This document shows, piece after piece, positions 7,527 to 45,608 of a stretch of 64,000 bases of DNA. Position 1 is the first letter of the stretch; the number at the start of each line of letters is the position of its first letter. The DNA is from Streptomyces hundungensis (lineage in GTDB: Bacteria; Actinomycetota; Actinomycetes; Streptomycetales; Streptomycetaceae), in the NCBI RefSeq assembly GCF_003627815.1, contig NZ_CP032698.1, positions 7,068,001 through 7,132,000 of the forward strand, given 5' to 3'. The notes below the pieces were generated by a model. The model was not told the DNA's origin and did no database searches. It saw only the letters and a list, made by a program, of their open reading frames with translations. The position numbers and the translations under genes were made by a program.

Positions 7527-9053
7527 GTGACTTCGCCTGCCTCGACGGAATCCGTTCCGCCCCAGCTCAGCGCGGCGGCGCGCCCAGCACCGGGCCCGGC
7601 CGCCGACGAGGGCCTCGCGCGCCGGCTGCGCGCGCTCGCCTGCACCGCCCCGCTGCACGACCTCGACGTGCGCAAGGCCAACCTCGCGGGGGAGTACTCG
7701 GTGTACGCGATGGCCGAGGTGGCCCTCGCCTCCATCGACCTCGTCACCCTGAACATGGACTTCGACACGGGCGCCGACCACGAGCAGATCGTCGCCCGGC
7801 TCATCCCGCGCGTGGCCGCCCAGGCACCGGACCGGCCCACCGCCGAGCACGAGCGGGTGGCCCGCTGGGTCCTGGAGAACCTGATCAACGTGGGCAGCGT
7901 GGACCGGGGCTTCCGCGCGGTGTACGGCACGTTCAACCCCGACGGCGTCTACGTCCGCAGGGACTACGACTTCAAGCTCCTCGAAGAGGTCCCCGGCTAC
8001 GGCGGCGCCGTCTATCTACGCACCACCGACGAAGCCGTCAACGTCCTGGTCGGCGCCCTCGACACCGATGTCACCAGCGCCCAGATCGCGGCCGAGGTCA
8101 AGCTGGAGGTCCTCATCAGCCGCGGCCGCCTCGCCGACGCCCAGCTCGCCGCCGAACAGGCCCGCTACCGCACGGTGCAGTACGCCGAGACGCTCCGGCG
8201 CACCCTGGAGGCCACCCGGCGCAACGTGCGCGCGGTCGACTGGCTCAACGCGGTGCCGGACATGATCGCCGAGGCCCTCGACCACGTCGCCGACCGCTAC
8301 CGGCACGAGAACGCGATCCTCACCAACATCCGCAAGGCCCGCGACGAGGCGGAGGACCCGGAGCACAAGCGCCGCGCCGCCGAGCTCGTCGACATCGTCA
8401 AGGACTGCATCCGCCGCCACACCCAGCTCCAGTCCCGCCTCCTGGAGGCCGGCCCGCTCTTCCGCGCCGAACAGGACCGCCAGGCCTTCGCCCGCCCCGC
8501 CGCCCGCTCCGGCCTCGACCTGTACGGCCAGCTGGTCGCCCCGCTGCTGCCGCTGCCGGTGGAACAGGCGATCCGGGTGACCGACGCCTTCTTCGCCCGC
8601 GGCACCGGCCCCCGTACCCCGGTGGCGGTGCGCGTCGGCGACCTGGTGGACATACTGCTCACCCCGCCCGTGGAACGGGAGCACCTCGGCGCGGAGATGC
8701 CCGAGCCCGAGCTGATCGCCACCCCCGACGACAGCCGGTTCAGCGAGGAGCAGCTCGCCGCCGCGATGCGCCTGCTCGACCTGGAGCACGACGCGCCCCG
8801 CCGACTGTCGGGCCTGCTCGCCGAGGCCCGCCTGCTCGACCCCGAACTGCCTTATCTGGTCGCCCTGTTGGCGGTCCACGCGGCGAGCCCGCCGGTCGGC
8901 ACGGCCTACCGCCAGGGCGAGGAGCGGCTGTTGTTCGCGGTCGACGACGGCGCGCACCTCGACGACCCGGAGTTCGGCGGCGCGGACCTGATCGTGGGCA
9001 CGGCACTGCTCGACACGGTGGGAATGGCCGCGGGCCGGACGGAGGCGGCGTGA
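7527..9053 (+). CDS. MukF/MksF/JetA-like kleisin subunit of a condensin-like complex
   Basis: The 508-residue protein has an N-terminal helical region (residues 30-140) and a YVRRDYDFKLLEE segment. It then has the family-typical block EVKLEVLISRGRLADAQLAAEQARYRTVQYAETLRRTLEATRRNVRAVDW split over residues 195-245, a coiled-coil middle, and a C-terminal winged-helix-like part. This matches the JetA/MksF/MukF kleisins that bridge SMC heads. It is first of three genes (kleisin, kite, SMC). Start choice is uncertain: GTG 7527 has no Shine-Dalgarno, but a TAATCT -10 ends 7 bp upstream, suggesting a leaderless transcript; a TTG at 7497 is the other option. Family assignment is by pattern, not alignment. 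Confidence 0.72.
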   Translation: MTSPASTESVPPQLSAAARPAPGPAADEGLARRLRALACTAPLHDLDVRKANLAGEYSVYAMAEVALASIDLVTLNMDFDTGADHEQIVARLIPRVAAQAPDRPTAEHERVARWVLENLINVGSVDRGFRAVYGTFNPDGVYVRRDYDFKLLEEVPGYGGAVYLRTTDEAVNVLVGALDTDVTSAQIAAEVKLEVLISRGRLADAQLAAEQARYRTVQYAETLRRTLEATRRNVRAVDWLNAVPDMIAEALDHVADRYRHENAILTNIRKARDEAEDPEHKRRAAELVDIVKDCIRRHTQLQSRLLEAGPLFRAEQDRQAFARPAARSGLDLYGQLVAPLLPLPVEQAIRVTDAFFARGTGPRTPVAVRVGDLVDILLTPPVEREHLGAEMPEPELIATPDDSRFSEEQLAAAMRLLDLEHDAPRRLSGLLAEARLLDPELPYLVALLAVHAASPPVGTAYRQGEERLLFAVDDGAHLDDPEFGGADLIVGTALLDTVGMAAGRTEAA

Positions 9054-9055
9054 GA

Positions 9056-9364
9056 TTTCCCCCACCCCGCCCCTTCCCGAACCCCTCCGGGTGTGGGCGT
9101 CCGACCGCGGGTCCGTACTCCTGGGGCTCCGCCCCAGACCCCGCTCCTCAAACGCCGGAGGGGCTGAATTGGCCTGCGCCGAGGTCTGGGGGCCGGTGTT
9201 ACCCAGACCCGGCCCCCAGCACGCCGAAGGGGCTGGAATCGGCGCTGCCGCGGGGTCGAGGGGCGCAGCCACCGTGGGGGTCTGGGGGCGCAGCCCTCAG
9301 GACGACCGCCCTCCCTTTCCCTTCTCACCCCCGGAGGGTTGCGGGAAGGGGCGGGGTGGGGAAA
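9056..9364. mobile_element. MITE-like element with 34-36 bp terminal inverted repeats
   Basis: The arms at 9056-9091 and 9329-9364 are near-perfect reverse complements (the left reads TTTCCCCCACCCCGCCCC and continues to CTCCGGG; the right reads CCCGGAGG and ends GGGGCGGGGTGGGGAAA). Between them lie two degenerate copies of a Streptomyces-type dispersed repeat (GGGGCTCCGCCCCAGACCCC and CTCAAACGCCGGAGGGGCT). There is no transposase. It begins three bases after the kleisin stop codon and ends about 70 bp before the kite gene, so it sits inside the operon and accounts for most of the 382-bp gap. Confidence 0.6.
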
Positions 9365-9435
9365 CCGCCCGCCGCAGGCGCCCAGCCCCCCGCAGTCGAG
9401 CACACGCACCACCACCACCGCACGATGGAGCACCC

Positions 9436-10338
9436 GTGACCGATCAGCACCCCGAGCCCGCCTTCGGCGACGACGCCCCGGCGCCCGCGGCGACCGGCAC
9501 CGGCGGCGAGGGCCGGATCACCCCCGCCGACGCCGCCGACGCCGCCCGGCTCGTCGCCTTCGGCCTCCAGCCCAAACTGCTGCCGGCCCGCGACGCGGAG
9601 TACGCCGAACTGCTCCGCCGCCACCGCGAGGACCCCGCCTTCGCGCGGCTCGCCGACGCCGTCGCCGCGGGGCTCGGCCTGATCGTCCTGGAGGTGTCCC
9701 CCCGCGCCGGCATGGCCGTGACCGCCGCCGAGGACTCCGTCTTCGCCGTCCGCATGGGCGACTACGCCCGCCGCGCCGCCGCCCCCGACTCCGCCGACCG
9801 CTTCCTGCACGGCCTGGCCCATCTCGCCGTCGCCGCCCTCGCGTTCCCCCGCCCCGAGGACCTCGCCGACGACGGCTACATCGGCCGTATCACCGTCAAC
9901 GGCGTGGACGCGTTCGTCCGGCAGGCCTGCCGCCGCCTCGAAGAGCGGGCCGAGGAGACCGGCGAGAACACCGACCCGGAGACCGGCGCCCCCGGCCTGG
10001 AGGCCGCCTGGCGGATCTACGCGCGGCGCAGCTCCACCGGCGCCACCAAGGACGCCCGCCGACTCGCCGGTTCCACCACCGGCATCGTCGCCAAGGCGGT
10101 CGCCTTCCTCACCGAATCCGGCTTCCTCCAGCGGACCGGGGACGACGCGGGCGGCGCCTACCGCACCACCGCCCGCTACCAGTTGCAGGTCCGCGACATG
10201 GCGGGCAGCGCCGCCCTCACCGAGCTGATCGAGCTCGGCGTGGTCGCGGTCACCGACGGCGGCGCCACCCTGCTGCCGCCGCCCGACGCCGACGACCTGG
10301 AACTGGTGGCCGACGCCGGACTGCCGTTCCACTCCTGA
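9436..10338 (+). CDS. MukE/MksE/JetB-like kite subunit of a condensin-like complex
   Basis: The 300-residue protein has an acidic low-complexity N-terminus. It then has DAEYAELLRRHREDPAFARLADAVAAGLGLIVLEV, a pattern seen at the start of JetB/MksE proteins (about residues 50-95), and two winged-helix-like modules; the second is around TTGIVAKAVAFLTESGFLQRT and YRTTARYQLQVRDM. Kite proteins bind the kleisin and regulate DNA loading. GTG 9436 has a GGAG site six bases upstream. It lies between the kleisin and SMC genes, and the gap to the SMC gene is 46 bp. Assignment rests on context and pattern. Confidence 0.68.
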   Translation: MTDQHPEPAFGDDAPAPAATGTGGEGRITPADAADAARLVAFGLQPKLLPARDAEYAELLRRHREDPAFARLADAVAAGLGLIVLEVSPRAGMAVTAAEDSVFAVRMGDYARRAAAPDSADRFLHGLAHLAVAALAFPRPEDLADDGYIGRITVNGVDAFVRQACRRLEERAEETGENTDPETGAPGLEAAWRIYARRSSTGATKDARRLAGSTTGIVAKAVAFLTESGFLQRTGDDAGGAYRTTARYQLQVRDMAGSAALTELIELGVVAVTDGGATLLPPPDADDLELVADAGLPFHS

Positions 10339-10384
10339 CGCCGCCTCCCCCCTCCGCCCCCCACCACCACGAGAGTCCGCCGAC

Positions 10385-13300
10385 ATGTACGAGCTGTCCC
10401 GGGTCCGCCTCTACTCCATCGGGCCTGCCGGTGCGCGCTATGCCGACACCGTGCTTGACCTGCGGGGAGTCGGCGCGCCCGTGCCCAACCCGGCCCCCGC
10501 GCAGGCCGAGTTCTTCGAGGACGAGCCGGTCGGCCCGCCGCGCCGCCCCGCGCCCGCGGGCGTGCTCTTCCTGGAGAACGGCGGCGGCAAGTCCGTACTG
10601 CTGAAGCTGATCTTCTCGGTGATGCTGCCGGGCCACCGCAACACCCTGGGCGGCGCCAGCTCCGGCGTCCTGCGCAAATTCCTGCTCGCCGACGACTGCG
10701 GGCACGTCGCCTTGGAGTGGCAGCACACCCTGACCGGCGAACTCGTCGTGGTCGGCAAGGTCAGTGAGTGGCGCGGGCGCCAAGTCTCCAACGATCCAAG
10801 GAAGTTCGCCGAGGCCTGGTACTCCTTCCGGCCGGGCCCCGGCCTCAGCCTCGACTCGCTGCCGGTCGCCGAGTCCAGCGCGATGCGGCCGTCCGCCGAG
10901 GGCGCCTCGGGCGCCCAGGGCCGGCGCCGCACCATGAAGGGCTTCCGCGACGCCATCACCGAGGCGGCCAAGGTCTACCCCCATCTCGAGGTGTACTGGG
11001 AAGAGATCCACGACCGCTGGAACGAGCACCTCGGCGAGCTCGGTCTCGACCCCGAACTCTTCCGCTACCAGCGGGAGATGAACGCCGACGAGGGCGAGGC
11101 CGCCGGCCTGTTCGCGGTCAAGAAGGACTCCGACTTCACCGACCTGCTCCTGCGCGCCGTCACCGACACCCGCGACACCGACGGCCTCGCCGACCTGGTC
11201 AGCGGCTTCGGCAACAAGCTCGGCCGACGCGCCGAACTCACCGCGGAGCGCGACTTCACCGCCGGCTCGGTCGACCTCCTGAACCGCATCGTCGAAGCCG
11301 CCGACACCCGCGCCCGGGCCCGTGACGTCCACGCCGCGGCCGAACGGCGCACCCGCAGGCTCGCGCGCCGCCTCTCGGCCCGCGCCGCCGAAGAGCGCGG
11401 CCGCGCCGCCGACCTCGCCCACCAGGTCACCGCCGCCGCCCAGCACGTCACCCTCGCCGAGCAGGCCCGCGGCCGCAGCTCCCTGATCGCCTCCGAACTC
11501 GCCTACCGCCACGCCTCGTTGGCGCTCGCCGTCGCCGAGAAGGCCGCCGCCGCGCAGCGCCGCGAACTGGCCGACGCCCGTACGCTCCACTCCGCCTGGC
11601 AGGCCGCCGAGGCCGTCCTGCGCCACCGCGCCGCCGCCGACCGCTCGGCCCGCGTGGCCGCCGCCATCCAGGAGGCCGAACGCGACGCGGCCCCCGCCCT
11701 CGCCGCCCGCGCCAAGGCCGCCGCCGATCTCGTACGGGCCCTGCACACGGCCGCCGAGGACGGCGAGCGCCTCGCGGCCGAGGAGGAGGAGCGCTCCGCG
11801 GCCCTCCAGGAAGCGGGCGAGGCGGCGCACCGCGACGCCACGGCCGCCGCGACCGAGGCCCAGCGGGCCCGCAGCGAGGCCGGGCACCTGCGCCAGCGTC
11901 TGGCCGAGGTCGAGCAGGAGACCGCCGAGGCGGTCCGCGCGGGCTGGCTGGACGACAGCGCCCCGGACGCCGACCCGGCGCGCGCCGCGCTCGCCGCGAG
12001 CGACGCGGAGAAGAACGCGGTGGCCGGCTGGGACGCCGCCCGCGAAGCCGCCCGCACCGCCGCCGACCGGGCCCGTGAGGCCGCCTCCGTCGAGGCCCGC
12101 GCCGAACTGGCCGCGGCCCGCGCCGACGACGCCGCCCGCGCCGCCGGCCACGCCTACGACGCCGAACGCCGGGCCGCCGAGTCGCTCGCCGGGGAAGAGC
12201 GCCTGGCCGAACTGCTCGGCCTGCCCGCGGTCGGCGCCGCGGTGCCCGAGCCCCGCAAACCCGACGGCGAGAGCGGCCAAAGCCCGCTCACCGCCGAGGA
12301 GTTGGACCGTGCGGCGGAAGAGCTGCGCGAGCTCCTCGACCAGCGGGTGGCCTCTGCCGAACGCCAGCTGTTCGACCTGCGCACGGCGGCCGCCGACGAC
12401 GCGCGCATCCTCGGCGCGCTCGGTGACGGCGGTCTCCTGCCGCCCAGCCCCGATGTGCTGGCCACCGTCGAATACCTCGGCGAGCACGGCATCCCGGCGC
12501 TGCCCGGCTGGCGCTACCTCGCACAGGCCGTCGCTCCCGCCGACCACGCCGCGGTGCTCGCGGCCCGCCCCGAACTCGTCGACGGCGTGGTCATCACCGA
12601 CCCGGCCTCGCACGCCCGGGCCCGCGAGGCGCTCGCGAACGCCGCGCTGTTGCCGCGCTCCGCCGTGGCCGTCGGCACCACCGCCGCCCTGCTCGCGCCC
12701 GTTCCGGCCCCGGACTCGGGCACCGACAGCGGCATCTTCCTCGTGCCGCCGAACCCGGCGATGCACGACGAGCACGCCGCCGACGAGGAACGCCAGGCAC
12801 TGCGCGGCCGGGCCACCGCCCGGGACGAGGAGATCCGGGCGCTGGCCGCCCGGCTCACCGGTGACCGCTCGCTGGCCGCCCGGATCGGATCCTGGCGCGC
12901 CGACTGCCCGCCCGGCATGCTCGCCGAACTCGCCACGGCCGCCCGTGCCACCCGTGAAGCCGCCGGTGAGGCCGCCCAGGTCCTGGACGAGGCCCGCACC
13001 GCGCGGGCCGAGGCGGACGAGGCGGCCGCCGAGACCGCGCGGGTACGCGAGGAGCGCCAAGAGGCCGCCCAGCGCGCCCGGCGCGCCGCCGACGCGCTCG
13101 CCGGCCTCGCCTTCCGGCTCCGCGAGCGGGCCGGCTGGCAGGTCAAGCTCCGTGAACTCGCCGACGAGGCCGCCGAGTCGGAGGCCCGCGCCCAGACGCT
13201 GCTGGAGCGCGCCAAGGCCGCCGACGAGGACCGCCGCGCCGCCCAGCGCGCCGCCGACGACGCCCACCGGACCTCCCGGGCGCTGCGCGCCGAGCGCGCC

Positions 13301-14992
13301 GAGATCGCGGGCGCCCCCGAGCACCTCCCCGAGCCCGAGGCCGACGCCCCGCGCACCTCGCTGCCCGCCCTGCGCGAGGCCTACCGCGCCGCGTCCCAGC
13401 TGTACGAGAAGGTCGGCGTCGGCGCCGACCTGCGCGCCGAGCAGGCCCGTGCCGAGAGCGACGAGAGCGCGGCGCTGGCCGAGCTCGACCGGCTCACCAA
13501 CAAGGTGCGCACCCGCGCGGCCACCCTCCTCGAAGGCACCGACGGCGCGGACGGCCCCTCCCGGCAGGCGGCCGCCGCCCGCGCCGAATCGCTCGTGCAG
13601 ATGTTGGAGACGCGGGCGTCCACGGCCAGTGAACAGCTCGGCCGGCTGCGCGGCGAGGCCGAACGCCTGGCCCCCGCCGACGGCGACGCGCACACCGAAC
13701 TCCCCGACGGCCAGGTGCCCGCCGACGCCGAACAGGCCCAGGCCCTGCTGCGTACCGCGACGGCCGAACTCGCCGCGCGCACCGACGAGTTGGACGCCTC
13801 CCGGGCCGCGCACGCCCAACTGCTCACCGCCCACCGGGCCGCCGAGGACGGGGCGGGCGGCTTCGAGGAGACCGCGGCGCTCCTGCGCGACCTGCTGCGG
13901 GACAACGGCCAGGGCCCCGAGGAGGAGAGCGCGCCCGAGCCGTATCCGGGCACCTGGGAGGAGGCCCGCCAGGCCGCCGCCGAGACCCGGCGCGCCCTGC
14001 GCGGCTGCACCGGCGACCTGTCGGCCGCGGACTCCGCCGTGCGCGAGGCGAGCGACATCCTGGTGCGCCACGCCAACGCCACCCGCTACGAGCAGGTCCG
14101 CACCCCGGCCCGCCAGCAGATCCGCGAACTGCCCGCCGCCGCCCTGCCCGAGCACGCCGCCGCGTGGGCCGCCGCCTTCGAACCCCGGCTTCGCGTCCTG
14201 ACCGACGAGCTGGAGCAGCTGGAGCGCAACCGCGACTCGATCGTCGACCGGCTGCGCGGCCTGGTGGAATCGGCGCTCACCACGCTGCGCTCCGCCCAGC
14301 GCCTGTCCCAGCTTCCCGAAGGCCTCGGCGAGTGGTCCGGCCAGGAGTTCCTGCGGGTCCGCTTCGACGAACCCGACCAGGCCACCCTCACCGAACGCCT
14401 CGGCGAGGTCATCGACGAGGCCACCCGCGCCGCCGTCAAGAAGAACTCCGATCTGCGCCGCGACGGCATGTCCCTGCTGCTGCGCGGAGTCCAGGCGGCC
14501 CTTGAGCCGCGCGGCATCTCCGTGGAGATCCTCAAGCCGGACGCGGTGCTGCGCGCCGAGCGCGTCCCCGTCGGACAGATGGGGGACGTGTTCTCAGGCG
14601 GCCAGCTGCTCACCGCCGCGATCGCCCTGTACTGCACGATGGCGGCGCTGCGCAGCAACGACCGGGGCCGCGACAAACACCGGCACGCCGGCACGCTCTT
14701 CCTCGACAACCCCATCGGCCGCGCGAACGCGACGTACCTCCTGGAGCTCCAGCGGGCCGTCTCCGATGCCCTCGGCGTCCAACTCCTCTACACCACGGGC
14801 CTGTTCGACACGACGGCGCTCGCCGAATTCCCCCTGGTGATCCGGTTGCGCAACGACGCGGACCTGAGGGCGGGCCTGAAGTACATCAGCGTCGAGGAGC
14901 ATCTGCGCCCCGGCCTCCCCCAGCAGGAGACCACGGGCGAGACCGTGCACGGCGAGATCACCGCGACGCGCATGTTCAAGAGGCCCGCCTGA
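10385..14992 (+). CDS. SMC/MukB/JetC-like ATPase of a condensin-like complex
   Basis: The 1535-residue protein is organised like an SMC. It has an N-terminal ATPase half with Walker A ENGGGKSVLLK (about residues 64-74), long Ala/Glu/Arg coiled coils, and a hinge-like globular segment near residues 605-800 (DGGLLPPSPDVLATVEYLG, PELVDGVVITDPAS). A returning coiled coil follows, and a C-terminal head with the ABC signature FSGGQLLT (1403-1410) and Walker B TLFLDNPIG (1437-1445). The residue after the Walker B Asp is Asn 1442 rather than the usual catalytic Glu. The size is close to MukB/JetC. It should dimerise and entrap DNA with the two upstream subunits. No nuclease subunit gene follows. Confidence 0.82.
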   Translation: MYELSRVRLYSIGPAGARYADTVLDLRGVGAPVPNPAPAQAEFFEDEPVGPPRRPAPAGVLFLENGGGKSVLLKLIFSVMLPGHRNTLGGASSGVLRKFLLADDCGHVALEWQHTLTGELVVVGKVSEWRGRQVSNDPRKFAEAWYSFRPGPGLSLDSLPVAESSAMRPSAEGASGAQGRRRTMKGFRDAITEAAKVYPHLEVYWEEIHDRWNEHLGELGLDPELFRYQREMNADEGEAAGLFAVKKDSDFTDLLLRAVTDTRDTDGLADLVSGFGNKLGRRAELTAERDFTAGSVDLLNRIVEAADTRARARDVHAAAERRTRRLARRLSARAAEERGRAADLAHQVTAAAQHVTLAEQARGRSSLIASELAYRHASLALAVAEKAAAAQRRELADARTLHSAWQAAEAVLRHRAAADRSARVAAAIQEAERDAAPALAARAKAAADLVRALHTAAEDGERLAAEEEERSAALQEAGEAAHRDATAAATEAQRARSEAGHLRQRLAEVEQETAEAVRAGWLDDSAPDADPARAALAASDAEKNAVAGWDAAREAARTAADRAREAASVEARAELAAARADDAARAAGHAYDAERRAAESLAGEERLAELLGLPAVGAAVPEPRKPDGESGQSPLTAEELDRAAEELRELLDQRVASAERQLFDLRTAAADDARILGALGDGGLLPPSPDVLATVEYLGEHGIPALPGWRYLAQAVAPADHAAVLAARPELVDGVVITDPASHARAREALANAALLPRSAVAVGTTAALLAPVPAPDSGTDSGIFLVPPNPAMHDEHAADEERQALRGRATARDEEIRALAARLTGDRSLAARIGSWRADCPPGMLAELATAARATREAAGEAAQVLDEARTARAEADEAAAETARVREERQEAAQRARRAADALAGLAFRLRERAGWQVKLRELADEAAESEARAQTLLERAKAADEDRRAAQRAADDAHRTSRALRAERAEIAGAPEHLPEPEADAPRTSLPALREAYRAASQLYEKVGVGADLRAEQARAESDESAALAELDRLTNKVRTRAATLLEGTDGADGPSRQAAAARAESLVQMLETRASTASEQLGRLRGEAERLAPADGDAHTELPDGQVPADAEQAQALLRTATAELAARTDELDASRAAHAQLLTAHRAAEDGAGGFEETAALLRDLLRDNGQGPEEESAPEPYPGTWEEARQAAAETRRALRGCTGDLSAADSAVREASDILVRHANATRYEQVRTPARQQIRELPAAALPEHAAAWAAAFEPRLRVLTDELEQLERNRDSIVDRLRGLVESALTTLRSAQRLSQLPEGLGEWSGQEFLRVRFDEPDQATLTERLGEVIDEATRAAVKKNSDLRRDGMSLLLRGVQAALEPRGISVEILKPDAVLRAERVPVGQMGDVFSGGQLLTAAIALYCTMAALRSNDRGRDKHRHAGTLFLDNPIGRANATYLLELQRAVSDALGVQLLYTTGLFDTTALAEFPLVIRLRNDADLRAGLKYISVEEHLRPGLPQQETTGETVHGEITATRMFKRPA

Positions 14993-15026
14993 TCGGCCGA
15001 TTGGCAGCGCGAGGTGCCGCGCCGCG

Positions 15027-15206
15027 CCCTGGGCCGGCTCTCGGCTCCGGGCCGCGGGCGGCGCCCAGGCGAGTGGCGCAGCTCCGGGCCGCGACGCCGC
15101 CCAGGCGAGTGGCTCAGCTCCGGGCCGCTGCGGCGCCCCGGCGGCTCAGCTCCGGGTCGCTGCGGCGCCCCGGCGGCTCGGCTCCGGGTCGCTGCGGCGC
15201 CTGGCG
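15027..15206. repeat. Imperfect tandem repeat, about five copies of 32-37 bp
   Basis: Copies start with a CCCAGG/CCCCGG/CCCTGG block near 15027, 15064, 15100, 15136 and 15168, and share a GGCTCAGCTCCGGG(T/C)CGCTGCGGCG-like core. The period is 36-37 bp in the first copies and 32 bp in the last ones. The block lies between the SMC stop and the end of the convergent small membrane protein gene. No ORF or hairpin terminator explains it. Confidence 0.6.
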
Positions 15207-15207
15207 G

Positions 15208-15609
15208 TCAGGCCCGGGACAGCCGCTGCCCCGAACCGTCCGTGGAGCGTATTCGCGCCGCACCCTGCGTGGTACGCGCCGCTCGGCGGGCCCGGCGCCG
15301 CTCCCGGCGCAACTTGCGCGCCGTGCTGCTCGGCATCGACACCACGCCGTTGCGCTGGTTCCACACCTGGCGGGTGACCCAGACGTCGAGCACGCCCCAG
15401 GTGGCGAGGACCGTGCTGCCGACGCTGCTCAGCACCATCGGGAAGGCCAGCCACGAACCGGCGAGCGTGGACAGGAAGGCGACCACCGCCTGCATCAGCG
15501 TGGCCGCGACGATGATCACGGCGCGGACGGCCGCCGTGCGGACCGGATCGGGCAACCGGGGCCGTACGGCCGGCTCTTCCACCCACAAGGGCCGCTGCTC
15601 AACGCTCAT
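15208..15609 (-). CDS. Small membrane protein of unknown function
   Basis: The 133-residue protein starts MSVEQRPLWVEEPAVRP. It has two hydrophobic segments (AVRAVIIVAATLMQAVVAFL and AFPMVLSSVGSTVLATWGVL, about residues 27-75) and a strongly basic tail (KLRRERRRARRAAR) that should lie in the cytosol. A GGGGAGGAATG ribosome site precedes the ATG. It points toward the SMC gene, with the tandem repeat between them. I recognise no family. It could be a membrane-anchored partner of either neighbour, but nothing shows that. Confidence 0.65.
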   Translation of the reverse strand: MSVEQRPLWVEEPAVRPRLPDPVRTAAVRAVIIVAATLMQAVVAFLSTLAGSWLAFPMVLSSVGSTVLATWGVLDVWVTRQVWNQRNGVVSMPSSTARKLRRERRRARRAARTTQGAARIRSTDGSGQRLSRA

Positions 15610-15995
15610 CCTTCATTCCTCCCCACCGGCGAAGGCTCGATGCCTCGCTCCCGCCGCGGGCCGCGCGCCGTCCGCGCCCGCTCCGACCGGACCCGCTCCC
15701 CGCCACGCGTACCCCGCTCGTCCCACACCACCCGTACGGACAGACGAACGGAACTCCCGGAAGATTCCCGGGATTTGGCCGGAAGGAGCACTTCCAGCCA
15801 TCTGCCGGAAGGGTCGAAAAGCCGCCATGACGGGTGACCTCGGCTTCGGGCCGGGGTGCCATCTCCCGGAATACCGGGACAACTCATGATCACCGCCTCC
15901 GACAGCGGCCGAAAATCGTCCGGACGTGCCTTCGAGTTGTCTGTGCGTCGGTAGTAGGCTCACGCCGTTTGTTGACGGTTGATCTGGGGGAGGCC

Positions 15996-18902
15996 ATGCG
16001 CTTTCGCGGGAAGTCCATCCGCAGGAAGATCGTGGCGTTGCTGCTGGTGCCGCTCGTCTCCCTCACCGCGCTGTGGGGGTTCTCCACCTACCTCACCGGC
16101 CGCCAGGCCGGCGGCCTGATGGACGTGGCGCACATCGTCAAAAAGGTCGGCTACCCCATCGAGGACACCGTCCGCGTCCTCCAGCAGGAGCGCCGCCAGA
16201 CCCTGGTCTACCTCGCCGACCAGCGACCGTCCGACGCGCTCGCCTCGCTGCGCGGCCGCCGCGCCGCCACCGACGCCGCGCTCGCCAGGATCCGCGCCGC
16301 CGCCCACAACCCGAACGTCCGCGACGACCTCAAGCCCGCCGCGAAGGAACGCCTCAAGACCGTGCTCGACGGCTTCGACTCGCTGCCGGGACTGCGCCAG
16401 TCCGTCGAGCAGGGTACCGTCGACCGGCCCCAGGCGCTGGACTTCTACAACCGGCTCATCGACCCCTGCTACGGCTTCCTCACCAATCTCCACGCCCTGG
16501 AGAACGTGGAGATGGACAAGCAGGGCCGCGCCCTGGTCGGCATCACCCGGGCCCGCGAGATGCTCTCGCGCGAGGACGCCCTCGTCGCCTCCTCCCTGAT
16601 CACCCCGAGGACGACCGCCCCCGAACTGCGCCGGATATCCGACCTGGTGGCCAACCGGCGACTGCTCTACGAAACCGACCTGGAGAACCTCCCCCGGGCC
16701 GAACGCGACCGCTTCGAGCAGTACTGGAGCGGCCCCGACACCGAAGCGCTGCGCACCGCCGAGGCCGCCCTCCTCGACGCCGGGCCCGCCAAGGACCGGC
16801 ACATCGACGCCACCCGCTGGCAGCAGGCCGCGACCCCGGTGCTCGACCGCCTCGCCCAGATGGGAACCCAGGCCGGCAACCGCTACCAGGACCGGGTCGA
16901 GCCGGTCGCCTTCAACGTCGTGATGAAGGCGGTCCTCGCCGGAGTGCTCGGTCTGCTCGCCCTGCTGGTCTCCCTGTTCATGTCCGTACGCATCGGACGC
17001 GAACTGGTCCGCGACCTCACCCGGCTCCGCAAGGAGGCCCACGAGGCCTCCGGGGTGCGCCTGCCGAGCGTGATGCGGCGCCTGGCCGCCGGCGAACAGG
17101 TCGACGTGGAGACCGAGGCGCCGCGCCTCGACTACGAACGCGACGAGGTCGGCCAGGTGGGCCAGGCCCTCAACACCCTGCAACGCGCCGCCGTCGAGGC
17201 CGCCGTCAAACAGGCCGACATGCGCCGCGGCGTCTCCGAGGTCTTCGTGAACCTCGCCCGCCGCAACCAGGTGCTCCTGCACCGCCAGTTGACGCTCCTC
17301 GACGCCATGGAGCGGCGCACCGAGGACACCGACGAACTCGCCGACCTGTTCCGCCTCGACCACCTGACCACCCGTATGCGCCGACACGCCGAGGGCCTGG
17401 TGATCCTGTCCGGCGCCGCCGCCTCCCGCCAGTGGCGCAAGCCCGTCCAGCTCATGGACGTCGTACGCGCCGCGGTCGCCGAGGTCGAGGACTACGAGCG
17501 CATCGAGGTGCGCAGGCTGCCCCGGCTCGGCGTCGGCGGACCCGCCGTCGCCGACCTCACCCATCTGATCGCCGAACTCCTGGAGAACGCCACGGTGTTC
17601 TCGCCTCCGCACACCGCGGTCCAGGTGCACGGCGAGCGGGTCGCCAACGGTTTCACCCTGGAGATCCACGACCGCGGCCTCGGCATGGCCCCGGAGATCC
17701 TCCTCGACGCCAACCTGCGTCTCGCCGAGACCCCCGAGTTCGAGCTCTCCGACACCGACCGCCTCGGCCTGTTCGTGGTCAGCCGCCTCGCCCAGCGCCA
17801 GAACGTCCGCGTCTCGCTCCAGCCGTCCCCCTACGGCGGCACCACCGCCGTCGTGTTCATCCCGGCCACCCTGCTCACCGACGCGCCCGAGACGGAGGGC
17901 ACCGGCTTCCGGCTCGACCGCAAGGCCGCCCAAGCCGCCCAGGGCGACGGCAGGAGCGTCCCGGACGCCCCGCGCCGTGCGCTGTCGCCGCTGCCCGTGG
18001 GCATCCCCGGCCAGTCGGTCCTGGACGGCCCCGTCGAACTGGAGCCGTCCATCGACCCGTTGGGCTTCGACGAGCCCTCCGTGTTCGAGGCGCCGGTGGG
18101 ACGCGAGGGCATCGAGGCGGGGCGCAGTGGGCTGCTCCGCTCGGCGCGCCGGGCCGCCGGGTCCCCGGACGAACGCCAGCAACACGCGCAGGCCGCCGAC
18201 GAGGGCGAGGACCACGAGCCGCTGCCCCTGCCCCGCCGGCTGCGGGTGCCGACGCTGGTCAGCGACAACGGCCGGCGCGTCGACGGCCACGGGCGCGGCC
18301 ACCCGGCGTCCGAGCCCGAACCGGCCCCCCAGGAGCCCCGGGCCTTCGAGAGCCGGCTGCCCGAACGCCGCGCTTCCCAGCCGCCGCGTCCCGGCGACTC
18401 CCGGGCCGAGCCTTCGGCCCCGCAGCCCCTGCGCCCCGCACCGCGCCCCTCGGGGCTGACGCCGGTGCGGCCCGCCGGTCTCGCCGAGCCGTCCGGGTCG
18501 GGCCCCGCCAACCCGGCGGACCTGCCGGGCGCGCCCAGCTCGGCGCCGTCCTGGGGCAGCCTGCCCGAAGCGCCGCCCGAGGGCGGTGCGCCGCTCGGCA
18601 GGCGTCTGGGGGCGAGCCCCGACGGCGAGGCACAGCTCGGCGGGCTTCCCCGCCGGGTCCGCCAGGCGAGCCTGGCCCCCCAGCTCAAGGCCGCCGAGGG
18701 CCACCACGCCGCGTCCGCGACCGACGAAGGACCCGATCCGGAGCGCGACGCCGACGAGGTGCGCGACAGGATGGCCTCGCTCCAGCGCGGCTGGCAGCGC
18801 GGCCGCAGGTACAACGACGCTTCGGACACCGCGGAAGGACCATCCGCGCCGGCCCGGGGCGACACCGCACGACGAACCACACCGGAGGGGGACGGTCGAT
18901 GA
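15996..18902 (+). CDS. cvnA: Conservon sensor kinase-like protein CvnA (nitrate-sensing domain, HATPase)
   Basis: The 968-residue protein has TM1 at about 12-32, a helical extracytoplasmic nitrate-sensor-type domain (about 50-300) and TM2 at about 307-330. A HAMP-like linker follows, and a GHKL ATPase domain with N-box LIAELLENATVFSPP (about 525) and G1 motif DRGLGMAPE (about 559). The last 330 residues are disordered and rich in Pro, Arg and Glu. Conservon kinases are thought to signal to the roadblock, DUF742 and GTPase proteins encoded next. ATG 15996 has a GGGGGAGG site. The stop overlaps cvnB (ATGA). Which of the several Streptomyces conservons this is cannot be told by eye. Confidence 0.93.
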   Translation: MRFRGKSIRRKIVALLLVPLVSLTALWGFSTYLTGRQAGGLMDVAHIVKKVGYPIEDTVRVLQQERRQTLVYLADQRPSDALASLRGRRAATDAALARIRAAAHNPNVRDDLKPAAKERLKTVLDGFDSLPGLRQSVEQGTVDRPQALDFYNRLIDPCYGFLTNLHALENVEMDKQGRALVGITRAREMLSREDALVASSLITPRTTAPELRRISDLVANRRLLYETDLENLPRAERDRFEQYWSGPDTEALRTAEAALLDAGPAKDRHIDATRWQQAATPVLDRLAQMGTQAGNRYQDRVEPVAFNVVMKAVLAGVLGLLALLVSLFMSVRIGRELVRDLTRLRKEAHEASGVRLPSVMRRLAAGEQVDVETEAPRLDYERDEVGQVGQALNTLQRAAVEAAVKQADMRRGVSEVFVNLARRNQVLLHRQLTLLDAMERRTEDTDELADLFRLDHLTTRMRRHAEGLVILSGAAASRQWRKPVQLMDVVRAAVAEVEDYERIEVRRLPRLGVGGPAVADLTHLIAELLENATVFSPPHTAVQVHGERVANGFTLEIHDRGLGMAPEILLDANLRLAETPEFELSDTDRLGLFVVSRLAQRQNVRVSLQPSPYGGTTAVVFIPATLLTDAPETEGTGFRLDRKAAQAAQGDGRSVPDAPRRALSPLPVGIPGQSVLDGPVELEPSIDPLGFDEPSVFEAPVGREGIEAGRSGLLRSARRAAGSPDERQQHAQAADEGEDHEPLPLPRRLRVPTLVSDNGRRVDGHGRGHPASEPEPAPQEPRAFESRLPERRASQPPRPGDSRAEPSAPQPLRPAPRPSGLTPVRPAGLAEPSGSGPANPADLPGAPSSAPSWGSLPEAPPEGGAPLGRRLGASPDGEAQLGGLPRRVRQASLAPQLKAAEGHHAASATDEGPDPERDADEVRDRMASLQRGWQRGRRYNDASDTAEGPSAPARGDTARRTTPEGDGR

Positions 18903-35936: not shown

Positions 35937-36386
35937 TCACTGCCAGCCGAAGAGCGCGTCGCCGGCCTTCACGTCGCCGCTGTCGAGGACATCGGAGAGG
36001 GAGTCGGCGGTGGCCTCGAGAGCCACGACGGGACAGATGGGCGACTTACCGGCGGCCTCGACGGCGACCGGGTTCCAGCGCACGACCTCTTGGCCGCGCG
36101 TCACGGTGTCGCCCTTGTTGACGAGGAGCTCGAAGCCCTCGCCGTTGAGCTGAACGGTGTCGATTCCCAGGTGCGTCAGCACACCGTGGCCCTCGCCGTC
36201 GACGACGACGAAAGCGTGCGGGTGCAGGGACACAACGACGCCGTCCACGGGCGCCACGGCCGCCGACGGCTCACGTACGGGATCAATAGCGGTGCCGGGG
36301 CCCACCATCGCGCCGGAGAAGACGGGGTCGGGCACAGCAGCGAGCCCGATGGCCTGTCCGGCAAGTGGGGACGTCACGCTAGTCAT
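35937..36386 (-). CDS. crr: PTS glucose-type EIIA component (Crr)
   Basis: The 149-residue cytosolic phosphocarrier has the two active-site histidines of EIIA-Glc: His57 in SLHPHAFVV and the phosphorylated His72 in VLTHLGIDTVQL. It also has the conserved N-terminal SPLAGQAIGLAAVPDPVFSGAMVGPG. It passes phosphate from HPr to sugar permeases and can act in regulation. ATG 36386 has a GGGAGG site. The gene is transcribed away from the rRNA operon, so its promoter shares the 36.4-37.0 kb region with the rrn leader. Confidence 0.96.
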   Translation of the reverse strand: MTSVTSPLAGQAIGLAAVPDPVFSGAMVGPGTAIDPVREPSAAVAPVDGVVVSLHPHAFVVVDGEGHGVLTHLGIDTVQLNGEGFELLVNKGDTVTRGQEVVRWNPVAVEAAGKSPICPVVALEATADSLSDVLDSGDVKAGDALFGWQ

Positions 36387-36531
36387 GGGGAGCCTCCCAG
36401 GGGCGGAGCTTCTAGTGTCGCCGTCACTACCTGTCCTGGACGGCGTACTGTTCAGAAGGGTAAGTCATAAGAAGTCCTAGTTCCGCACGGCGAGTGCCGG
36501 TTGGGAGACCTAGGTGCACACCGGAAACGAT

Positions 36532-36560
36532 TTGCCTCAACTCCCGGCGGCATGTACTGT
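36532..36560 (+). promoter_or_regulatory. Candidate upstream rrn promoter
   Basis: TTGCCT (36532-36537) and TACTGT (36555-36560) are separated by exactly 17 bp, on the plus strand about 500 bp before the 16S gene. Streptomyces rrn operons are driven by several tandem promoters, so this is plausible as the first. Confidence 0.4.
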
Positions 36561-36693
36561 CGTACTCCTGCCTGACCCCATCACGACACTGTGATTCGGC
36601 GGTCGGCGGCACCTACCAAGTCTCAACCCTAACCCGGATTTCTGTTTCTGCATGCCCGCAGAGATGGTGGTCGGGAAGACGGAAAAGACTTGC

Positions 36694-36780
36694 TAGAGTC
36701 TGAATCGCCGGAAAGGGAAACCCGAGAGGGAGAACCGGAAAGGCGCCGAGGAAATCGGACACGAAAGAGTCTGATAGAGT
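36694..36780 (+). promoter_or_regulatory. Two TAGAGT -10 boxes of tandem rrn promoters
   Basis: TAGAGT occurs at 36694-36699 and 36775-36780 in similar settings (preceded by gcttGC or AGTCTGA, followed by purine-rich sequence). TAGAGT is the -10 reported for Streptomyces rrn promoters, which lack good -35 boxes. The intervening DNA is made of imperfect GGAAA/GAGAGGG repeats. Confidence 0.45.
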
Positions 36781-37060
36781 CGGGAACACGAAATACCGAA
36801 GGGAAGCGCCCGGAGGAAAGCCCGAGAGGGTGAGTACGAAGGAAGTGTCCGTTCCTTGAGAACTCAACAGCGTGCCAAAAGTCAACGCCAGATTGACAAC
36901 CCCGTATCCACTCCGGTGGATCGAGGTTCCTTTGAAAAGTCCTGTCGGCCTTCACGGTCGGCAGGCGATTACACAGCGAGGACGCTGTGGACGGGCCGCC
37001 TTATTCCGGTGGTTCCGTCCCGCTCTTACGTGATGTGTGCACCCGATTACGGGTAAACAT

Positions 37061-41992
<4,932 letters not shown>

Positions 41993-42080
41993 AGTTGCTC
42001 GCGTCCACTGTGTTTGTTCTGAAGCAATGAACTCCCGCATGCCCTGATGGGTGTGTGCCGGTTGAGTTCAACTTCATAGT

Positions 42081-42199
42081 GTTTCGGTGGTCATAGCGTT
42101 AGGGAAACGCCCGGTTACATTCCGAACCCGGAAGCTAAGCCTTTCAGCGCCGATGGTACTTCAGGGGGGACCCTGTGGGAGAGTAGGACGCCGCCGAAC
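42081..42199 (+). rRNA. rrf: 5S ribosomal RNA
   Basis: The roughly 119-nt sequence runs from GTTTCGGTGGTCATAGCG to GACGCCGCCGAAC, with pairing ends (TTCGGTGG/CCGCCGAA) and the CCGAACCCGGAAGCTAAG core. It follows 23S by about 90 bp. The spacer has a possible 5S processing stem (TGAAGcaatGAACTC pairing with GAGTTCAACTTCA). Confidence 0.96.
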
Positions 42200-42210
42200 A
42201 AATTTTAGGG

Positions 42211-42260
42211 GAAAGCCCCGCACCAGACCGTAGAAATACGGTCACGGTGCGGGGCTTTTT
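42211..42260 (+). terminator. rrn operon intrinsic terminator
   Basis: AGCCCCGCACC pairs with GGTGCGGGGCT and is followed by TTTTT. A second hairpin (GACCGTA/TACGGTC) is nested in the loop. It is a strong T-tailed terminator at the end of the rRNA operon. Confidence 0.93.
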
Positions 42261-42389
42261 CGCGTTCTGATCCGTCGTGCGGCGCCGGCGAGGCGCCTGT
42301 ATCGCGCGTACCCCCTGTGCAGGCGTTGGCCCGCGCTGACGGTAGGGTCAGGGGGCATCGTCGGCACATTTCCCACAGGAGGCCCCCGG

Positions 42390-42998
42390 GTGGAGGTCCA
42401 GGAGACTCGCGTTCAGACGGACCGGGTGCTCACCATCCCCAATATCCTCAGCATGGCGCGCCTCGTGGGCGTACCGCTCTTCCTGTGGCTGATTCTCCGA
42501 CCCGTCTTCGGCGGCCTGAACAGCGACGGCTGGGCTCTGCTGGTGTTGGCGCTGAGCGGTGTCAGTGACTACTTGGACGGCAAGCTGGCCCGGCGGTGGA
42601 ACCAGATCAGCAATCTGGGACGCCTCCTCGACCCGGCTGCCGACCGGCTGTACATCCTTTCCACGCTGGTCGGCCTCACCTGGCGGGAGATCCTCCCGAT
42701 TTGGCTGACCGCCGCCCTCGTGGCCCGCGAGTTGATGCTTCTGGTGATGGTGGGAATCCTTCGTCGGCACGGCTATCCGCCGCCCCAGGTGAACTTCTTG
42801 GGTAAGGCGGCTACGTTCAACCTGATGTACGCCTTCCCGCTGCTGCTGCTCAGTGACGGGAGTGGATGGCTGGCGTCACTCGCTGCGATTTTCGGATGGG
42901 CGTTCGCCGGATGGGGTACAACTCTGTATTGGTGGGCAGGAATCCTGTATGTGGTTCAGGTCCGCCGGCTGGTGAAGGCGGACGTAGCGGCCGATTGA
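42390..42998 (+). CDS. cls: CDP-alcohol phosphatidyltransferase, probable eukaryotic-type cardiolipin synthase
   Basis: The 202-residue membrane enzyme has the CDP-alcohol phosphotransferase signature DGx2ARx8Gx3Dx3D (DGKLARRW, then GRLLDPAAD) at about residues 64-86, and five to six hydrophobic helices. Its place between the PTS genes and a GDP-mannose-pyrophosphorylase-like gene matches the S. coelicolor gene SCO1389, reported as an essential CDP-DAG-dependent cardiolipin synthase. A PgsA-type activity cannot be excluded by sequence alone. GTG 42390 has ACAGGAGG nine bases upstream. The rrn operon separates it from crr. Confidence 0.88.
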   Translation: MEVQETRVQTDRVLTIPNILSMARLVGVPLFLWLILRPVFGGLNSDGWALLVLALSGVSDYLDGKLARRWNQISNLGRLLDPAADRLYILSTLVGLTWREILPIWLTAALVARELMLLVMVGILRRHGYPPPQVNFLGKAATFNLMYAFPLLLLSDGSGWLASLAAIFGWAFAGWGTTLYWWAGILYVVQVRRLVKADVAAD

Positions 42999-43112
42999 GC
43001 CCGGCGATCGCGGGCCCCTGGTGATGAGTGGGCAGCCGCGTTTGACGTCGGAGACCCGTCCGTACGGGCGAAGTCGGCCAGACCGTCGTCTCTTGAGGAG
43101 GACGTTTCCGAC

Positions 43113-45608
43113 ATGAAGGCCGTCGTTATGGCTGGTGGCGAAGGCACACGCCTTCGCCCCATGACCTCGAGCATGCCCAAGCCGCTCCTGCCGGTGGTCA
43201 ACCGGCCGATCATGGAGCATGTGCTGCGGTTGCTCAAGCGGCATGGGCTCAATGAAACCGTCGTCACCGTACAGTTCCTGGCGTCACTCGTCCGGAACTA
43301 CTTCGGTGACGGAGAAGAGCTCGGAATGGAGCTCACCTATGCCAACGAAGAGAAGCCCCTCGGTACCGCAGGCAGCGTCAAGAATGCCGAGGAAGCTCTT
43401 AAGGACGATGCCTTCCTGGTCATCTCCGGTGACGCCCTCACCGACTTCGACCTGACTGATCTCATCAATTTCCACAAGGAGAAGGGCGCACTCGTCACGG
43501 TGTGCCTGACACGCGTTCCCAACCCCCTTGAATTCGGCATCACCATCGTCGATGAAGAGGGCAAGGTCGAGCGCTTCCTCGAGAAGCCCACCTGGGGTCA
43601 GGTCTTCTCCGACACCGTGAACACGGGCATCTATGTGATGGAGCCCGAGGTCTTCGACTATGTCGAGGCCGACAAGTCCGTCGACTGGTCCGGCGATGTC
43701 TTCCCGCAGCTCATGAAGGAAGGCAAGCCGATCTACGGCTATGTCGCCGAGGGCTACTGGGAGGACGTCGGCACGCACGAGAGTTACGTCAAGGCGCAGG
43801 CCGACGTGCTCGAAGGCAAGGTCGACGTCGACATCGACGGATTCGAGATCTCCCCGGGCGTCTGGGTCGCCGAAGGCGCCGAGGTGCACCCCGATGCCGT
43901 GCTCCGCGGCCCCCTCTACATCGGGGACTACGCGAAGGTCGAAGCGGATGTCGAAATCCGTGAGCACACCGTCGTCGGATCCAATGTGGTGGTCAAGAGC
44001 GGCGCTTTTCTGCACAAGGCCGTCGTCCACGACAACGTATACATCGGTCAGCACAGCAATCTCCGTGGCTGTGTGATCGGCAAGAACACCGACATCATGC
44101 GGGCCGCCAGAATCGAGGACGGCGCCGTCATCGGGGACGAGTGCCTCGTCGGCGAGGAATCGATCGTCCAGGGGAATGTCAGGGTCTATCCCTTCAAGAC
44201 CATCGAGGCCGGTGCGTTCGTCAACACCTCGGTGATCTGGGAGTCGAGAGGGCAGGCCCATCTCTTCGGGGCCCGGGGCGTCTCCGGCATTCTCAATGTC
44301 GAGATCACGCCCGAACTCGCCGTACGTCTCGCGGGGGCGTACGCCACCACGCTCAAGAAGGGGTCGACCGTCACCACGGCGCGCGACCACTCACGTGGTG
44401 CGCGGGCGCTCAAGCGGGCCGTCATCTCGGCGCTGCAAGCCAGCGCCATAGACGTACGGGACCTGGAGAACGTGCCGCTGCCCGTGGCGCGCCAGCAGAC
44501 GGCGCGGGGCAGTGCCGGCGGCATCATGATCCGGACCTCGCCGGGAGTGCCGGACTCCGTCGACATCATGTTCTTCGACGAGCGGGGCGCGGACCTCTCG
44601 CAGGCCGGACAGCGCAAGCTCGACCGGGTCTACGCGCGCCAGGAGTACCGACGGGCCTTCCCCGGCGAGATCGGTGATCTTCAGTTCCCCTCCAGCGTCT
44701 TCGACTCGTACACGGGGTCGCTGCTGCGCAAGGCGGACACCACCGGGATCGCGGAGGCGGGCCTCAAGGTCGTCGTCGACGCCTCCAACGGAAGCGCCGG
44801 TCTGGTGCTGCCGAGCCTCCTCGGGCGGCTCAAGGTGGATGCGCTGACGATCAACCCGGGTCTCGACGAGTCCAGGCCCACCGAGTCCGTGGAGAGCCGG
44901 CGGGCCGGGCTGGTGCGGCTCGGGGAGATCGTGGCCTCGGCGCGAGCCGCGTTCGGAGTGCGGTTCGACCCGGTCGGCGAGCGGCTCTCGCTGGTCGACG
45001 AGCGGGGCCGGATCGTGGAGGACGACCGGGCGCTGCTCGTGATGCTGGACCTGGTGGCGGCCGAGCGGCGCAGCGGGCGGGTCGCGCTGCCCGTCACGAC
45101 GACACGGATCGCCGAGCAGGTCGCGGCGTACCACGGCACTCAGGTGGAGTGGACGACGACCTCGCCGGACGACCTCACCCGGGTCGGCCGTGAGGAGTCC
45201 ACGATCTTCGGTGGAGACGGCCGCGGCGGATTCATCGTGCCCGAGTTCAGCAGCGTCTTCGACGGCGCCGCCGCGTTCGTACGCCTTCTCGGTCTGGTGG
45301 CGCGCACTCAGTTGACGCTCAGTCAGATCGATGCGCGGATACCACAGGCGCACGTGCTGCGGCGGGACATCCCGACGCCGTGGGCGGTCAAGGGCATGGT
45401 GATGCGGCGGGTCGTCGAGGCCGCCGGAGGACGGTCCGTGGACACCACTGACGGTGTACGGGTCGTCGAGGCCGACGGGCGTTGGGTGATGGTGCTGCCC
45501 GACCCCGCCGAGGCGGTGACCCATCTGTGGGCCGAGGGGCCGGACGACGTATCGGCCCAGGCGCTGCTGGACGAGTGGGCCGCGGTGGTCGACAGCGCAG
45601 GTCACTGA
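43113..45608 (+). CDS. Mannose-1-phosphate guanylyltransferase-like / phosphomannomutase-like fusion
   Basis: The 831-residue protein has three parts. First is a nucleotidyltransferase domain, [28 protein letters not shown] (residues 1-230). Second is a left-handed beta-helix of hexapeptide repeats (about 250-365, [24 protein letters not shown]). Third is a phosphohexomutase-like part (about 380-831). The first part should make GDP-mannose or a related sugar nucleotide for glycan or protein mannosylation. The mutase part looks degenerate: the serine loop reads [14 protein letters not shown] instead of TASHNP, and the sugar loop reads GGDGRGG. ATG 43113 has GAGGAGG. It is probably the homologue of SCO1388. 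Confidence 0.9.

Follow-up and report, generated by a model that had tools for sequence, protein, structure and literature searches.

The jetABC locus

We analyzed a stretch of 64,000 bp (hereafter the window), corresponding to bases 7,068,001-7,132,000 of an 8.39-Mb chromosome assembled as one contig, which belongs to the genus Streptomyces according to its relatives. Three plus-strand genes, each with a coding signal, occupy positions 7527-14992 of the window and encode JetA, JetB and JetC in the order A-B-C (Table 1). The initial annotation of this DNA had labelled them as a condensin-like operon of the Muk/Mks/Jet kind. A more precise assignment is Wadjet type III, since JetA matches the PADLOC model of the JetA3 kleisin and JetC, with its ATPase motifs, that of the JetC3 SMC ATPase (scores in Table 1). 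JetB matches no PADLOC model at E ≤ 0.1 and was assigned through its homolog in the complete JetABCD operon of locus L104. Pfam and NCBIfam, which contain models for MukB, MukE and MukF, returned no family at E ≤ 1e-3 for JetA, JetB or JetC, and thus none of the curated MukBEF/MksBEF families. The locus has the composition of a MukBEF or MksBEF system, a kleisin-KITE-SMC trio without a nuclease, the KITE identity of JetB being given by homology only.

Predicted structures were compared with known folds using Foldseek. Confidence in the AlphaFold2 model of JetA is low, with a mean predicted local distance difference test score (pLDDT) of 47. Its two significant matches are chains of MukBEF entries (E = 1.3e-5 and 2.2e-4), whose length of 431-440 residues fits MukF, the chains being assigned by length. 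Template modeling (TM) scores with these chains were only 0.22-0.26 and root-mean-square deviations 38-44 Å, and the likeness of JetA to MukF is therefore local. The core entry for E. coli JetABCD also contributed one chain, at E = 8.9e-3, all such rows having TM-scores of 0.19-0.26. For the JetB model (pLDDT 62), the top three rows were chains of MukE-MukF entries, none of them significant, and the best was a chain of MukE size (E = 0.08). These data give partial support to the kleisin identity of JetA and are compatible with JetB being a KITE protein, an identity made probable by operon homology together with this non-significant fold match. The layout proposed initially (MukF/JetA, MukE/JetB, MukB/JetC) thus stands for the kleisin, by JetA3 and a local fold likeness, and for the SMC subunit, by JetC3, while the KITE fold match of JetB stays short of significance.

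Table 1. Features of the jetABC locus and its surroundings (window coordinates).
Feature	Position	Strand	Remarks
JetA3-like kleisin	7527..9053	+	508 aa, GTG start; PADLOC PDLC00567 JetA3, E=1e-187
JetA-JetB spacer (382 bp) with dispersed genomic repeat	9054..9435	.	
JetB-like, probable KITE protein	9436..10338	+	300 aa, GTG start; 49% identity to JetB of L104
JetC3-like SMC ATPase	10385..14992	+	1535 aa, ATG start; PADLOC PDLC00588 JetC3, 1391.6 bits
Tandem repeats after JetC, 32-36 bp units	15040..15201	.	Tandem Repeats Finder
Small convergent protein, one hydrophobic region	15208..15609	-	133 aa; hydropathy peak 2.28

Absence of JetD

In Wadjet systems, JetABC is described as the motor that senses DNA shape and size, and JetD as the cutter (PMC10586767). 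No JetD or TOPRIM Pfam family was found in ten open reading frames (ORFs) flanking the trio, and the whole 8.39-Mb genome contains no match to PF09983, PF11795 or the PADLOC JetD3 model. These results agree with the initial observation that no TOPRIM gene lies in the flanking 15 kb; the window extends only 7.5 kb upstream, where the remaining distance is covered by the whole-genome searches. A survey of relatives for an adjacent JetD, suggested in the initial annotation, also came out negative: a hidden Markov model built from six accessory JetD proteins detected no JetD in any of 80 fetched loci. These loci (79 from Streptomyces, 1 from Kitasatospora) are the best 80 of 502 confirmed relatives, i.e., the closest ones, and in 73 of them the sequence continues for 300 bp or more beyond jetC. 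A search for JetD relics in JetD-less loci gave nothing above 4.8 bits. At the scale of the genus, 128 of 150 Streptomyces genomes contained no JetD by either JetD model (the genus, order and class samples used here are all draws).

Conservation and selection in Streptomyces

A JetA match was present in 147 of the 150 Streptomyces genomes, and in 146 of them it was the core copy, at 82-100% identity. The other one (G121) has a weak match only (7e-66) and was counted as lacking the core copy. No JetA match was found in G050, G073 and G079, two of which are 78-82% complete. In a second, partly overlapping sample, core JetA was detected in all 104 members of the genus. The laboratory model S. venezuelae carries a JetB homolog at 82% identity. 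The gene neighborhood is largely common to the 80 fetched loci, with upstream or downstream neighbors missing or moved in some of them. In one locus (L020, positions 11988-18560), jetB and parts of jetC are inverted inside the locus, which may reflect an assembly error or an inversion of recent date; given its scrambled jetC, L020 was left out of the set used for selection analysis.

The full set of flanking genes was present in 33 loci. Relative to the window, these have median identities (best segment) of 91% for JetA, 87% for JetB and 84% for JetC. The flanking medians were 79% for a major facilitator superfamily (MFS) protein, 78% for a GntR protein and 64% for a histidine kinase; the small neighbor reached 82% over 71% of its length. 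The median ratio of nonsynonymous to synonymous substitution rates (dN/dS; 528 pairs from 33 sequences) was 0.10 for JetA, 0.14 for JetB and 0.18 for JetC. The calculation used the best tblastn segment of each gene; in several loci this segment spans about 60% of JetC. The same set gave 0.21 for MFS, 0.20 for GntR, 0.42 for the kinase and 0.18 for the small neighbor. Pairwise dN values of JetA, JetB and JetC correlate with those of the MFS, GntR and kinase genes (rho 0.70-0.85), which fits vertical inheritance. Judging from these sequence comparisons, the trio is a core feature of Streptomyces under purifying selection.

Armed JetABCD paralogs

More than one JetA match was detected in 13 of the 150 Streptomyces genomes. 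A full JetD3 match (>100 bits) was present in 11 of these 13 genomes versus none of the 137 others (Fisher p = 5e-15, related genomes being taken as independent). In all eight loci examined (L101-L108), jetD directly follows jetC, and PADLOC assigned JetD3 to all six JetD proteins submitted. JetA proteins of these loci share 33-53% identity with that of the window. In contrast to the core trio, complete JetABCD operons are diverged and sporadic accessory paralogs. In 11 of the 150 genomes there are JetD genes that score weakly, if at all, with the JetD3 model; these probably belong to other Wadjet types. Two genomes have mirrored copies of JetD_C genes, one about 34 kb from each chromosome end (L087/L099 in G129, L088/L100 in G049), as fits terminal inverted repeats. 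The jetC gene is spread over two frames in L105, L148 and L166.

The two kinds of loci also differ in gene spacing. The distance from the JetA stop to the start of the JetB model is 91-1084 bp in the core trio (median 196, 80 sequences), versus -11 to 8 bp in L101-L108, where the genes overlap or nearly touch. This is only a tendency and no sure sign of JetD loss, because the JetD-less Frankiaceae copies described below are intermediate (2-278 bp, with a mostly short JetB-JetC distance) and the JetD-bearing L159 is loosely spaced at two other junctions.

JetC motifs and coexistence with ScpA

JetC of the window carries a Walker A motif (LENGGGKS), a signature motif (FSGGQ) and a Walker B motif (LDNPIG). 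Among JetD-less JetC proteins, LENGGGKS and FSGGQ were found in 29 of 29, and LDNPIG at the expected place in 27 of 29. JetD-bearing JetC proteins have FSGGQ and LDNPIG in seven of seven, with LQNGGGKG as Walker A in two (L107, L108); L105, with jetC in two frames, was left out of this check. Walker B reads LDNP in JetC of the window, of L101-L104, of L106-L108 and of L151, i.e., in JetD-less and JetD-bearing copies alike. SMC ATPases usually carry D-E at this site, and the catalytic residue of the type III JetC subfamily may differ from the usual one.

Of the SMC-ScpAB subunits, ScpA was the one searched for, and it was detected in 21 of 21 relatives. These include the genome of the window, where the match (G000:C1:6661468) lies about 0.4 Mb from the trio. 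The trio therefore probably adds to SMC-ScpAB.

Distribution beyond Streptomyces and phylogeny

Using the JetA3 model on 296 genomes of the class, we found matches in 43 genomes from 5 of 114 genera. One of the five is Streptomyces; the other four belong to a single family, which protein and contig matches showed to be Frankiaceae. A core-like JetA was present in 19 of 35 Frankiaceae genomes. None of the 15 core-like Frankiaceae loci fetched has a JetD, downstream DNA being visible in 10 of them. The class sample includes 15 JetA3-positive Frankiaceae genomes, of which 12 lack a JetD3 match above 100 bits and three (G313, G383 and G392) carry JetD beside another JetC copy. In 13 Frankiaceae loci, for which short flanks were fetched, no homolog was detected for any of the eight genes tested from around the trio in the window, and only JetA, JetB and JetC were found. 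In the same order, two further families were sampled (15 genomes); none of these genomes has a core-like copy, but two of the 15 hold diverged JetA copies (34% and 46% identity).

In the JetA tree, built without L158 and L161-L164 (no usable JetA), JetD-less copies of Streptomyces and Frankiaceae form one clade (support 93/80) and JetD-bearing copies fall outside it, with a warning for long branches. In the JetB+JetC tree each family group is supported at 100/99, and a single clade of both is left undecided by the approximately unbiased test (p = 0.48). These trees fit JetD having been lost once or twice, provided that the root lies among JetD-bearing copies. The copies L156, L163 (genome G384) and G444:C22, whose JetA is 58% identical to the core copies, may be the nearest JetD-bearing relatives. 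In G384, the JetA copy is truncated where its contig stops, and a separate contig carries a JetC end together with JetD.

Features surrounding the trio

The spacer between jetA and jetB contains a 22-mer (9125-9146) with 146 copies in the genome at ≤1 mismatch, versus 0 for the reversed control. The tandem repeats and the convergent small protein downstream of jetC, both reported by the initial annotation, are real. The repeats are probably incidental to the system, because an array of any kind lies within 400 bp 3' of jetC in only 14 of the 73 relatives with sufficient downstream DNA, with periods that vary among the 12 relatives listed. The small protein has no homolog in the 13 trio-bearing Frankiaceae loci, as far as their short flanks reach, and is best regarded as a neighbor that nothing ties to the system. 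Elsewhere in the window, positions 36001-44000 have a GC content of 57-62%, versus 68-79% in the rest, and a simple gene picker called no gene at 36387-42389; this low-GC stretch is possibly an inserted island.

Discussion

The trio shares with Wadjet type III the JetA3 and JetC3 models, the A-B-C order and the FSGGQ and LDNPIG motifs. It differs in lacking JetD, in being core rather than accessory, and in the JetA-JetB junction, which is tight in the armed loci L101-L108. Another close system is MksBEF of P. aeruginosa, likewise a kleisin-KITE-SMC complex without nuclease beside SMC (PMC10586767, PMC7485682). MksBEF is thought to be JetABCD minus JetD and to take part in chromosome organization, and a past as defense systems was proposed for both MukBEF and MksBEF (PMC10586767). 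The trio would be a type III parallel to MksBEF, from which it differs in that its subunits match type III models. In mycobacteria, an actinobacterial Mks protein, MksB, is said to cluster with replisomes (a citing sentence in PMC13121528), but the mycobacterial operon has a nuclease gene (MksBEFG/EptABCD; PMC10586767). Enterobacterial MukBEF resembles the trio through the local likeness of JetA to MukF-size chains and the weak one of JetB to MukE, but not by sequence family; nor does the trio replace SMC-ScpAB, as ScpA is present. SMC-ScpAB has the same general architecture and is a separate family. Wadjet is reported to be enriched in Actinobacteria and, in Streptomyces, to lie towards chromosome ends (PMC10482375); the available part of this survey of actinobacterial defense systems makes no mention of a nuclease-free core copy. 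None of the literature matches listed deals, by its title or the beginning of its abstract, with a trio of this JetD-less kind in Streptomyces or Frankia.

We consider it rather likely that the trio is a loop extruder of Wadjet origin, retained to organize the chromosome, i.e., a second, MukBEF-like condensin. Its lineage would have lost the JetD nuclease, JetABC being retained as a core gene set. JetABC would then act as an ATP-driven dimeric loop extruder, like JetABC of Wadjet and MukBEF, and would work side by side with SMC-ScpAB on the chromosome of the cell itself. Complex formation, loop extrusion and the KITE nature of JetB are predicted by analogy with known homologs, and the chromosome as substrate is something that we only infer. 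The initial annotation had left three options, a chromosome organizer, a nuclease-free silencer of plasmids and a system with its effector elsewhere; the first is favored, and the last disfavored, by the conservation of the trio, the selection acting on it and the lack of JetD in most genomes. Several observations weigh against a chromosome organizer. The spread found with the JetA3 model is narrow (5/114 genera, 19/35 Frankiaceae genomes, 0/15 in the two same-order families), and the function is therefore dispensable in near kin. The dN/dS of JetC (0.18) equals that of the small neighbor and is only slightly under that of GntR (0.20). Walker B was unconfirmed in two of the 29 JetD-less rows (L146, L167), where the pattern matched elsewhere first. 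We found no expression, phenotype or Hi-C evidence for the trio, and Hi-C work in Streptomyces ascribes the alignment of the arms to SMC and ParB, naming no second condensin in the part available (PMC8410768). Nor is a second condensin in Streptomyces named in the accessible part of a Streptomyces SMC paper (PMC13121528).

A nuclease-free silencer is the likeliest of the alternatives, although we regard it as unlikely. Here JetABC would sense and compact small circular DNA, so that plasmids would be silenced or lost uncut, as proposed for Smc5/6 on viral circles. Sensing by JetABC and cutting by JetD are separate in Wadjet, compaction of circular DNA has been proposed for Smc5/6 (PMC10586767), and JetC retains its ATPase motifs. 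Near-universality and a shared neighborhood with correlated divergence would nevertheless be unusual for a defense system, and the copies that do occur sporadically are the accessory JetABCD ones. Moreover, circular plasmids occur in many Streptomyces.

It is quite improbable that the trio is a complete defense system in which JetD was replaced by an unrelated or unlinked effector. The genome-wide searches covered JetD families only, and 11 of the 150 genomes have the weakly scoring JetD genes mentioned above; but no flanking gene tested is shared with the Frankiaceae loci within the short flanks fetched, 128 of the 150 Streptomyces genomes lack any JetD match, and no JetD relic above 4.8 bits emerged in JetD-less loci. 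A role in DNA repair or recombination, through the handling of loops or ends rather than bulk chromosome folding, has just as little to recommend it: the SMC-like Smc5/6 and Rad50 serve genome maintenance (PMC10586767), but the scanned flanking ORFs include no repair gene. A role restricted to linear chromosomes is unlikely because Frankia chromosomes are circular.

The broader proposal is that a second chromosomal condensin arose from type III Wadjet through JetD loss and is present in almost every Streptomyces and roughly half of the sampled Frankiaceae. This would be a passage from defense to housekeeping independent of that of MksBEF, with the armed paralog still present in a subset of these genomes; we see the case for and against it as evenly balanced. 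Work on chromosome organization in Streptomyces has dealt with SMC as the condensin (PMC8410768, PMC13121528). If true, a second, Wadjet-derived complex must enter models of the Streptomyces chromosome and might explain the mild phenotypes of smc mutants. The proposed defense past of MukBEF and MksBEF also becomes testable, because single genomes contain both a disarmed type III copy and an armed one.

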